Origin: Prochlorococcus marinus XMU1402
GTDB lineage: Bacteria; Cyanobacteriota; Cyanobacteriia; PCC-6307; Cyanobiaceae
Length of the DNA: 64,000 bases
NCBI RefSeq assembly: GCF_017696205.1
Contig: NZ_JAAORD010000002.1
Location: forward strand, 1-64,000
Direction: 5' to 3'
In this document: one piece after another, positions 1,590 through 22,550 of the stretch
Numbering within the stretch: the stretch's first letter is position 1
Layout: each line of letters begins with the position of its first letter
The notes under the pieces: generated by a model
The model's database searches: none
Seen by the model: the letters and a program-made list of their open reading frames with translations, nothing else
Told to the model about the DNA's origin: nothing
Position numbers and translations under genes: made by a program

Positions 1590-2051
1590 TCTTTAAATCT
1601 AATGATGAAGGTTAAAAATTAATTGCTTAAAGTAATAATATTATGAAAAAACTACATAAATTTATTATTTTCAAAATAAAGATGTTTTATTTTATTTTCA
1701 AATGATCTTTTTTGTAAAAAGATAGATTTAATAAATGTGAGGAAATAAGATTTTTATAAAAATTTGAAGTGTTAAAGAATGGTTCAGTCTCTCCTCGAGA
1801 CAAATCAATGAATTCATTAAGAAGATGAAAGATAGGACAAAAGACAAAAATCAAAAAAATCGAGCTCTTTAAAAAAATATCAATCCTTAGATAATTAAAT
1901 CTTTAATATGTTTCTGGAATAATTTATAAAAAAAGTTTTTTAGCTGCAAAAGTTAGCGGCGGTTAGCAAAACTAAATAAGATAATTAATCATTCATAATA
2001 TTTTATAAAAGGTCTTTTATAAAAGCTGCTTATGAATTAATATCTTATGAG
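1590..2051. other. Intergenic region upstream of tRNA-Pro
   Basis: About 460 bases without a convincing ORF on either strand. The sequence is AT-rich, with one small inverted repeat (GTCTC-TCCTC-GAGAC near 1785). It should hold the tRNA-Pro promoter, but no box is clear enough to call. Confidence 0.4.
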
Positions 2052-20279: not shown

Positions 20280-20561
20280 ATGATTGAAAAAAAAGAAGAT
20301 AATATTAGAAGCGAAAGTTACTACCCCGATTCTAATTTCTACATTGATAATAAAGAAAATGATATTTCTGATAAGGCCAATACTTCTCAAAAGAATTCTC
20401 TATTAAGAGATCAAATACTTAATATGGGGGAAAATTTTGAATGGCCAAATACTTATTGGTTCATTGCGGAAAGAACAAATGGAAGGCTTGCAATGATAGG
20501 CTTCATGGCTGTAATTATTAACTACACATTATTTGGATGGATAGCATATCCAATCCTTTAA
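20280..20561 (+). CDS. High-light-inducible protein (HLIP), long N-terminus
   Basis: The C-terminal helix carries the chlorophyll-binding signature ERTNGRLAMIGFMAVIINYT, preceded by NTYWFIA and ending GWIAYPIL. HLIPs are single-helix relatives of plant LHC proteins that bind chlorophyll and carotenoid and protect photosystems under stress. The 50-residue polar N-terminus is longer than in most HLIPs. After its stop, an ATG-less frame ending AAFVVTVLSIYFS (to 20665) may be a decayed companion gene. Confidence 0.88.
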   Translation: MIEKKEDNIRSESYYPDSNFYIDNKENDISDKANTSQKNSLLRDQILNMGENFEWPNTYWFIAERTNGRLAMIGFMAVIINYTLFGWIAYPIL

Positions 20562-20855: not shown

Positions 20856-22550
20856 TTATTTTGAGGTCCTAAAACGCCAAACCAGACTTGCATCCAAGGT
20901 ATTGGCATCCAAATTCCCATCATTAGAAATCACTTTTCCTATGCCAGTTTGAAAGCTGAAGTCATTATTTAGAATGTACTCTAACCCGACACTCGGTTTA
21001 TATAATAAGGCGTTACCACTATCAACGCCCCCTCCCCCTCCGGCACCTATAAGCATTTCGCCATAGATTTTCCAGTTCATCCATTTTGGGCTAAAAACAC
21101 CTACACCCCAGTGCCCCTCCGAATAGCCACCAGCCCCTCCTGCATACGCGCTTAATCCTTGTCCTGTAAGATACCACCAATCTCCTTTCATCCAGTCAAT
21201 TTTACCTCCCAACAGTTGCATATCGCGTGAAAGGGTATCCCTACGTTGCGCATTAAAATACCATTGATGTGCTGGACGAAAACGCCATTTGGTAGTTTCT
21301 ATACGGTCTTTTCTTGTCAGAGGTGCTCCTTTTTGATCCTGAGCAAAAGTTTTCATTACGTGCGTCAAATTTAAACCAAAATAAGGGGTATCAAAATTGC
21401 CATCTGGGGCGGTGAGATAGCCGCCGTCAGTAATTAGGCTGAGATCAGGAGAAAGTCGGTATTCCAATCCTATATTTGCTCGAGCAACAAATCCTCCTCC
21501 GGTCTCGACGGCACCGCCACCCGCGCCACCAATGGTTAAGGCAGGGAGTAAAGCCAGACGATCACTCTTTGTTAGTGGTATCCGATAGCCTAACCCCGCC
21601 AAAAGTTCAGCGTACCCACCAACACCTCCTGATACGGCACCTGCAGTTTCAAAAGTTGCAAACCAGTTTTCATCAAGAAAATAAGAGTACTCAACGCCGA
21701 CCAGCCCCAATGATTCATCAAGGGGGCCACCAGAGGTGGTTCTGCTGCCGCTGGAGGGAGAATAGGCGCGAGTGCGTACAGCTAGGTGAGATCGGTGGCT
21801 GCTAACATTTCTGTATTCTGACCCGAAATGATTGGCCACGGTCAGCTCATCATCTTCCAAATTGAATATCGGTGAACTGAAGGGAAATTCCAGTGAAAGA
21901 GCAATTGCATCGCTGGAAATATCTCCGTTAGGAAAATCTACGTAAGTATAATTCAGGCCTACTGTGCTCCAGCTAAAGTCGTACTTGAGACCGATATGAG
22001 GGCGAATCATCAACCCTCCTCCTTGCGCGGCGGAACCTCCGCCACCGGCACCAACATAACCTCCAGTATCTAGGCTCCAGTTTTCGGTTAATTTACGTTC
22101 TATACCTAAGGTATAGCCTCCAGTAAAGAACCCACCTCGGCGTCCTCTCGCGGCACCAAAAAGTGTTATACCGCCGTACATCCAAGGATTAAACAGATTG
22201 TAAGCCCCTATACTATACAAACCCATATTTTCACCCTCATCTGGCATATCAATTTCCTCAAAAGAAAACCGCAGGGAGCGATTGCGCCAAATTAGAGGCT
22301 CCCTTAATGCGTTTTTTCCACCCTCAAGCTGGTTTATTGAAGAACCTTCTTCATTTGCATTTTTAAAATAATTTTCTTCGCCTTTGTAAAATTTCCAAAT
22401 AATCTTTTTCAATGGTTTAGATTTATTTTCTTCAACCTTTTCCCAAATAATATTATTTATTTCAGATGAATCTTCTTTTACTTTTTCTGCAAAGACTCCT
22501 AGAAAATTTAATGACTGACTAATCAAAAATATATAAACTATCAACCTCAT
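20856..22550 (-). CDS. Chimeric outer-membrane beta-barrel-like protein of foreign composition
   Basis: The first about 85 codons are AT-rich and host-like: a signal peptide (MRLIVYIFLISQSLNFLGVF) and two repeats of the pattern IIW-K (NNIIWEKVEENK, KKIIWKFYKGEE). From about 22290 leftward the DNA becomes markedly G+C-rich and encodes glycine-rich repeated units (GGYVGAGGGGSAAQGG, LTIGGAGGGAVETGG, LIGAGGGGGVDSG) alternating with aromatic strands (NIGLEYRLSPDLSLITDGGY), as in outer-membrane barrels. It ends ASLVWRFRTSK with no terminal Phe. A host export leader fused to an acquired barrel is inferred. Confidence 0.78.
   Translation of the reverse strand: MRLIVYIFLISQSLNFLGVFAEKVKEDSSEINNIIWEKVEENKSKPLKKIIWKFYKGEENYFKNANEEGSSINQLEGGKNALREPLIWRNRSLRFSFEEIDMPDEGENMGLYSIGAYNLFNPWMYGGITLFGAARGRRGGFFTGGYTLGIERKLTENWSLDTGGYVGAGGGGSAAQGGGLMIRPHIGLKYDFSWSTVGLNYTYVDFPNGDISSDAIALSLEFPFSSPIFNLEDDELTVANHFGSEYRNVSSHRSHLAVRTRAYSPSSGSRTTSGGPLDESLGLVGVEYSYFLDENWFATFETAGAVSGGVGGYAELLAGLGYRIPLTKSDRLALLPALTIGGAGGGAVETGGGFVARANIGLEYRLSPDLSLITDGGYLTAPDGNFDTPYFGLNLTHVMKTFAQDQKGAPLTRKDRIETTKWRFRPAHQWYFNAQRRDTLSRDMQLLGGKIDWMKGDWWYLTGQGLSAYAGGAGGYSEGHWGVGVFSPKWMNWKIYGEMLIGAGGGGGVDSGNALLYKPSVGLEYILNNDFSFQTGIGKVISNDGNLDANTLDASLVWRFRTSK

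Follow-up and report, generated by a model that had tools for sequence, protein, structure and literature searches.

A Prochlorococcus outer-membrane-like gene joins a resident Trp-repeat leader to a probably foreign body of three predicted barrels

Outer-membrane proteins that carry more than one barrel in a chain have been described from models. GfcD/YjbH was modelled as two barrels of 12–13 strands with a middle domain, and the passages of that article cited here state that no solved dual-barrel structure was known to its authors in 2021 (PMC8592465). Fusions of resident and acquired sequence are also on record; the cited part of one report describes arthropod genes in which horizontally acquired fragments are fused to native ones (PMC13389597). 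Here we describe a gene of Prochlorococcus marinus XMU1402 in which both features appear to be combined. The gene lies in the window, the whole 64,000-nt stretch of DNA that was analysed, and its features are collected in Table 1. The chimera itself is well supported by sequence comparison, and we consider it very probable that the gene is a captured-body chimera, namely a resident leader followed by a foreign three-barrel body.

The frame differs from its surroundings in base composition. Over its whole length, the G+C content of 0.442 and the GC3 of 0.365 are the highest among 43 mechanically listed, non-overlapping ORFs of at least 100 aa in the window, the other 42 of which average 0.328 and 0.224, respectively. 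The richest 500-nt stretch of the gene reaches 0.512 G+C versus at most 0.418 elsewhere in the window. The best single change point is codon 73 (window position 22332), with 0.239 G+C before and 0.472 after, and the likelihood of this step was reached by none of 500 codon shuffles. Residues 1 to ~70 have a G+C content of about 24–28%, and residues ~87–564 of 47%. Fourfold-degenerate sites also show the effect (G+C at 100/242 or 41% in the body, 2/23 or 9% in the leader and 774/4408 or 18% in the other ORFs), and the excess in the body is therefore not explained by its glycine richness. The same step was observed in the first six genes compared, the window's included (leader 0.23–0.30, body 0.46–0.50). 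An earlier note, made from the letters alone, had claimed that the barrel part is richer in G+C than anything else in the window, with which the windowed G+C, GC3 and fourfold sites all agree. The sharp change that it placed near 22290 is also present, but lies ~40 nt nearer the gene start, and its junction at about residue 87 is indeed in frame but belongs at residue ~70–73.

Table 1. Features of the chimeric gene and of a related interval in the window.
Feature	Positions	Strand	Basis
Chimeric gene, 564 aa	20856..22550	minus	Single intact open frame
Signal-peptide-like helix, residues 1-21	22488..22550	minus	Helix 2-16 in model, leader alignment; cleavage VFA/EKV by eye
Resident Trp-repeat segment, residues 22-70	22341..22487	minus	Common to resident AT-body family; no structure predicted, pLDDT <50 for 1-88
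Junction and linker, residues 71-86	22293..22340	minus	Change point 22332; linkers of L044, L072, L078 versus L034
G+C-rich body, residues 87-564	20859..22292	minus	Composition, homologues in other genomes
Barrel module 1, residues ~87-240	21831..22292	minus	VIA Z 15.9 to OmpA over 88-225; module homology
Barrel module 2, residues ~249-408	21327..21806	minus	VIA Z 13.9 to OmpA over 250-402, few rows; module homology
Barrel module 3, residues ~415-564	20859..21308	minus	VIA Z 17.6 to OprF, 17.1 to NspA; pLDDT 89.6 alone
Interval from phosphoribosyltransferase-like gene (1077-1589; Pfam below cut-off) to tRNA-Pro (2052-2126)	1590..2051	.	Chimera in corresponding place elsewhere

As judged from its homologues, the leader (residues 1 to ~70) belongs to an outer-membrane-like family resident in picocyanobacteria. 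In 60 genomes searched, one of them that of the window, full-length orthologues with 73–77% identity turned up in five others and a shortened gene in one (G004); leader-only matches were found in eight further genomes. In these eight, the leader runs into a different, AT-rich body, with a total length of 602–622 aa or a short form of 322 aa. The earlier claim that the export leader and its "IIW-K repeats" (IIWEKV and IIWKFY) are native agrees with these leader homologues on another body in the same genus. At least two Trp residues are kept in 31 of the 32 chimera leaders listed. Among the resident N-termini of other genera, 19 of 24 contain at least two Trp-repeat motifs, and the 46 motifs in total compare with a mean of 5.1 and a maximum of 12 after shuffling, for a motif drawn up after the sequences had been viewed. 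In the Cyanobiaceae family draw, the resident family profile matches 48/201 genomes and 20/59 genera, although in a small number of these genomes, including G000, the match covers only the leader or a fragment; profile A2 of this family matches G000 over the leader alone (profile positions 1–77), and the body is not shared. The resident member L023 has no Pfam or NCBIfam match at E ≤0.1, and the family is unnamed. The resident short form (322 aa; L028 7896-8864, L029 8138-9106 and L030 7147-8115) is without the first part of the resident body. Sequence comparison indicates that both body types can lose N-terminal parts behind a retained leader. A 722-aa protein (L021 3255-5423), relatives of which lie beside four other chimeras, weakly resembles the leader close to its C-terminus (34% over 61 residues, E 0.09).

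The match to the resident leader extends to about residue 70. In some relatives, the linker stretch that follows is still like a leader of the non-Trp type (QFAG..A.WMEPPTWRNR). In L034, which is from a second genus and is the same protein as L077, the body stands behind another leader (0.48 G+C) ending ...FQFAGDKAAWMEPPTWRNR, and versions of this ending are retained in several Trp-leader chimeras, such as L044 (FQFAGTKSKAAFIEPATWRNR) and L078 (SQFAGGEATWMEPPTWRNR). The resident match up to ~70 and the L034-like endings after it place the join at about residue 70, near the codon-73 step. The DNA at the junction would allow a 4-base microhomology (TTCA), which is too short to be informative.

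The body comprises three tandem modules of ~150 residues that are mutually homologous (pairwise BLASTP E 1e-9 to 3e-18 with the low-complexity filter and the composition correction off). The full-length model is weak (pLDDT 62.1), with 24 predicted strands, and residues 1–88 are unstructured except for the signal helix (pLDDT <50). VIA-align places residues 88–225, 250–402 and 419–560 each on a separate 8-stranded barrel. Module 3 folded alone has 8 strands at a pLDDT of 89.6 and matches OmpA, OmpW and OprF at TM 0.56–0.71 (query-normalised). TonB-dependent receptors and large porins are also among the Foldseek matches, with low TM values (0.16–0.26). Each module is predicted to form an OmpA/OmpW-like closed, 8-stranded meander barrel. 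Of the glycine-rich barrel repeats described earlier, the repeats are borne out as three homologous modules, and the single barrel gives way to three predicted ones. In the shortened gene of G004 (L022 8520-9191), the leader is joined in frame straight to module 3, giving a 223-aa protein with a single predicted barrel, which fits modules that are able to stand alone. The body is under purifying selection (dN 0.02–0.06 versus dS 0.11–0.41 in seven pairs). The window protein has no match in Pfam, NCBIfam or PHROGs at E ≤1, and profile A5 has none among PDB sequences at E ≤1. Pfam contains a model for YjbH/GfcD (DUF940), and with no Pfam family at this threshold the window protein is not placed in that family by sequence.

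A pattern scan of one genome per species (84,980 species), which relied on two short motifs and so covers close relatives only, returned 34 loci, of which 32 are titled Prochlorococcus, one Crocinitomicaceae (L100) and one Verrucomicrobiota (L102). One of the Prochlorococcus loci, L084, is on the contig of strain MIT 9302. The Trp leader is present in 30 of the 34 and missing in L074, L077, L098 and L102. Three neighbours in L100 (PBXW01000144.1) are 70–91% like Prochlorococcus genes of the window, and by sequence this is probably a mis-binned Prochlorococcus contig. L102 encodes a 743-aa protein with an N-terminal part of its own and a body 67% identical to that of the window. Its contig has 51% G+C over 20 kb and carries Poly_export/SLBB, Wzz, Glycos_transf_4, DUF1501 and PSCyt genes; the genome is a MAG whose bin may err, and the genes on the contig look Verrucomicrobial or planctomycete-like. 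The L102 body (0.53 G+C) is like its own contig (0.51) and unlike Prochlorococcus, and the L102 protein comes close to Pfam OMP_b-brl (E 2.3e-6, 28.3 bits versus a cut-off of 28.7). The N-terminal part of L102 (4206-4997) shows weak likeness to LptD_N (E 0.048) and LptC (E 0.0037), both below the cut-offs. Two further full-length relatives from the same Verrucomicrobial order share 35–36% identity with L102 and 32% with the window protein; these two lie on contigs of 62–64% G+C and have starts that look signal-peptide-like by eye.

The body is rare in each draw of genomes. In the Verrucomicrobiota phylum draw, 1/288 genomes matched (that of L102 itself), and in the draw of its order 5/245, two of which (L137 and L138) matched only at E 0.004–0.007 and were set aside. 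With the broader profile A7, the cyanobacterial phylum draw gave 5/339 genomes in 1/128 genera, and all five, one of which is the window genome, belong to the genus of the window; in the Cyanobiaceae family draw, the body was found in 9/300 genomes and 2/59 genera. In viral contigs, 136 pattern matches to the body were obtained and none passed tblastn. No relative of the body was confirmed in phage and plasmid records, and the same holds for the L102 body against plasmids. A match in G059, from another family, spans 42 residues only (E 5.6e-4) and was judged to be chance. The body tree does not place L102 with support, and Prochlorococcus as one clade is neither shown by it nor rejected (p 0.44). 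Because of this, the direction of transfer is read from G+C, depth of divergence and the few Verrucomicrobial genomes, from which the body probably came from a Verrucomicrobiota-like donor. The central claim of the earlier note, that a foreign barrel was captured by a resident leader, is supported: the leader occurs on another body, the G+C-rich body occurs elsewhere without that leader, and the non-cyanobacterial relatives found are all Verrucomicrobial. Its expectation of non-cyanobacterial body matches came true thinly, through L102, since 32 of the 34 loci are Prochlorococcus and L100 is probably mis-binned. Full-length orthologues of the same composition, which it had named as evidence against itself, do literally exist in 5 of 59 other genomes, but they are chimeras of the same kind, so that they indicate a shared fusion and leave the reading standing. 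On these comparisons the capture is common to many Prochlorococcus and not private to the window genome.

Foreign and resident bodies seldom occur together. Among 121 genomes of the genus, the foreign body is present in 19 and the resident body in 33 (a count that takes in full, partial and degraded copies), and both are present in none. The leader was found in 43 of the 121, once in each, on the foreign body in 18, the window genome among them, and on the resident body in 25; the three draws of 121 were taken as the same genomes from their shared handles. The hypergeometric P for mutual exclusion, with kinship and incompleteness ignored, is 0.0013 for all genomes; when restricted to the 41 most complete, it is 0.04. 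G247, from the second genus, shows that the exclusion does not hold generally: it has a foreign body that follows a different leader and also a short gene of the resident type (319-aa frame).

The resident gene is flanked on one side by ferredoxin-like, CobQ-like and psbC/psbD genes and on the opposite side by tRNA-Ser and the gene for a FutA-like binding protein (domain families of the neighbours are from Pfam; the names FutA and CobQ were assigned by us). In the window genome, this site lies at ~71–72 kb on the same contig, just beyond the window, and tblastn found no resident gene there. In all 12 chimera genomes checked, the site gave no tblastn match to the resident gene (11 of the regions reach FutA and that of G010 stops short), and the same was true of three genomes with neither gene. 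The ferredoxin–FutA interval by tRNA-Ser is highly variable between genomes and contains different genes (L167, L169, L170, L174 and L175). Chimeras were located at 42 loci, some representing the same genome twice. They stand at the resident site in 10 loci (L079, L080, L081, L085, L087–L091 and L095), and, as a second type of place, beside the phosphoribosyltransferase-like gene W1077 in 11 or beside its neighbour W1 alone in L073, L078, L093 and L099. In 10 others they lie elsewhere in the zone matching ~16–40 kb of the window, as the window gene does, with a 93-aa gene (at 20280 in the window), a pseudouridine synthase or other zone genes as neighbours. L076 and the loci with other leaders fit none of these three location types. 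A tRNA-Pro is present in 11 of the 13 W1077/W1 loci scanned (not in L084 and L141; the scan omitted L073 and L093), and the corresponding tRNA-Pro interval of the window holds no chimera. Between chimeras in situ and residents, no clear shared promoter or flank was observed (38–67% upstream and 40–82% downstream, the higher values over ~30 aligned bases).

The pairing of leaders and bodies varies among the chimeras. The set compared, defined by a sequence pattern, comprises 36 distinct proteins, of which 32 have the Trp leader and the other four are L033, L034, L098 and L102, the last being Verrucomicrobial; the pattern missed at least L037/L143, L089, L090 and L096, which are missing from the trees. 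L101, the body of which is split by a frame change, was excluded from A5 and included in the trees, and 13/25 resident leaders are in the leader tree, with L059, L062 and L067 lost through pattern failure. One clade of the body tree (100/99), made up of L100, L098, L038 and L088, has three kinds of leader. The L038 leader is 93% like that of L045 and 72% like that of L088, whereas its first three body segments are 89, 86 and 92% like L088 versus 80, 73 and 77% like L045, and the rest is also nearer L088; between L038 and L088, dS is 0.39 for the bodies and 1.09 for the leaders. An AU test rejects the Trp-leader bodies as a clade apart from the other-leader and Verrucomicrobial bodies (p 3e-7), with the group chosen on inspection of the tree. 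Repeated capture was addressed by AU tests on the leader tree (72 columns): one clade of all chimera leaders is not rejected (p 0.187), nor is a grouping of types A and B that leaves out L088 (p 0.164). As judged from these trees, leaders and bodies have been exchanged, and we claim exchange and not a number of captures, because one origin of the leaders is not rejected. In L098 (4716-6437), the foreign body follows a different leader that also has two IIWEK repeats. A search for the L074 leader in 14 genomes of its genus recovered, besides L074, a single 29% match (E 8e-4), which lies in a different kind of protein.

A single native gene, with a body made G+C-rich by its amino acids or by codon selection, would account for full-length orthologues with the same step in many Prochlorococcus and for purifying selection on the body. 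This reading is very unlikely to be right: fourfold-degenerate G+C in the body far exceeds that in the other ORFs and in the leader (41% versus 18% and 9%), the leader is found on another body and the body without the Trp leader, and the body matched in 1/128 genera in the phylum draw and 2/59 in the family draw. That the body moved the other way, from Prochlorococcus or from an unsampled third group into the Verrucomicrobiota of L102, gains from the single genome found with a 67% relative, from a tree with no supported placement of L102 below the Prochlorococcus set and from the coverage of other phyla by two short motifs only. We nevertheless judge it unlikely, since the G+C content of the L102 body fits its own contig and not Prochlorococcus, the more distant relatives belong to the order of L102, and the family is shallow and patchy within Prochlorococcus. 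Capture from a Verrucomicrobiota-like donor is the reading that we prefer.

The architecture of the body and the number of fusions each admit an alternative. The 24 predicted strands and the low-TM Foldseek matches to large porins and TonB-dependent receptors could reflect one 24-stranded pore built from the three modules. This is quite improbable, because every module aligns to closed 8-stranded barrels (Z 13.9–17.6), module 3 folds confidently alone, and G004 retains an in-frame gene of leader and module 3 only. A closer contender, to which we give somewhat less than an even chance, is that fusion occurred once and that the leaders were later varied by gene conversion or by swapping between chimera and resident. 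The AU result compatible with one clade of chimera leaders (p 0.19) and the linker remnants that several chimeras share with L034 are in its favour, whereas L088, at the resident site, has a resident-like leader and a different linker, and L098, L074 and L077 have other leaders, with L098 nested among the chimeras in the body tree.

For the captured three-barrel chimera, we propose the following course of events. A Verrucomicrobiota-like donor, whose close relative of the gene lies beside polysaccharide-export genes, would have supplied the body, which would have been joined on after the resident leader, with the resident locus as the place of the splice in some lineages at least, and would have taken over the slot of the resident gene. 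The leader would direct Sec export, and the BAM machinery would fold the three modules into the outer membrane as a row of three small barrels whose glycine-rich loops face outward. The Trp repeats would stay periplasmic as a native tether or docking segment, which may be why they persist whichever body comes after them. Barrels of 8 strands are seldom open pores, and surface display, adhesion or envelope stabilisation is therefore favoured over transport as the function, although this is a guess that we expect to fail rather more often than to hold. We also suggest, tentatively and with some doubt, that the Trp-repeat leader is an interchangeable docking module for unrelated multi-barrel bodies, such that swaps at core and tRNA-linked sites vary the surface while native export and tether are kept. 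If this account is true, a streamlined, AT-rich cyanobacterium has adopted a large foreign outer-membrane protein by retaining the native leader and changing the remainder, which would be a natural experiment on the requirements for exporting and placing a foreign barrel and would mark a short Trp-repeat segment as the portion kept native. Because phages and grazers meet the Prochlorococcus surface, the ability to exchange a body there would be relevant to both. The gene would also supply a predicted three-barrel outer-membrane protein where, in the cited passages of PMC8592465, no dual-barrel structure had been solved by 2021.

Our literature search, mostly of titles and the starts of abstracts, recognised no paper on the gene or the fusion, which may still be published. 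The kinds to which the gene belongs, multi-barrel outer-membrane proteins and resident–acquired fusions, are already known, and it is not a new category. Compared with the resident picocyanobacterial Trp-repeat outer-membrane-like family, the leader is common and the body unrelated. The fold predicted for each module is that of the OmpA, OmpW, NspA and OprF barrels, of which the window protein would have three in tandem, without a match in the sequence libraries. It shares with other multi-barrel outer-membrane proteins more than one barrel per chain, by prediction only; the YjbH/GfcD proteins (DUF940), as described in the cited part of PMC8592465, are modelled with two barrels of 12–13 strands, whereas the window protein has three homologous modules of 8 predicted strands. 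As in an "HGT-chimera", our own label for fusions of native and acquired gene fragments, the resident part here, the leader, has homologues within the lineage that are attached to a different body; for the foreign part, the comparison gave Verrucomicrobial relatives but no supported nesting among them. The arthropod fusions, as far as the cited part of PMC13389597 describes them, likewise join resident and foreign sequence in frame; the window gene differs in that it is bacterial, its resident part is an export leader and its foreign part replaces the resident body.
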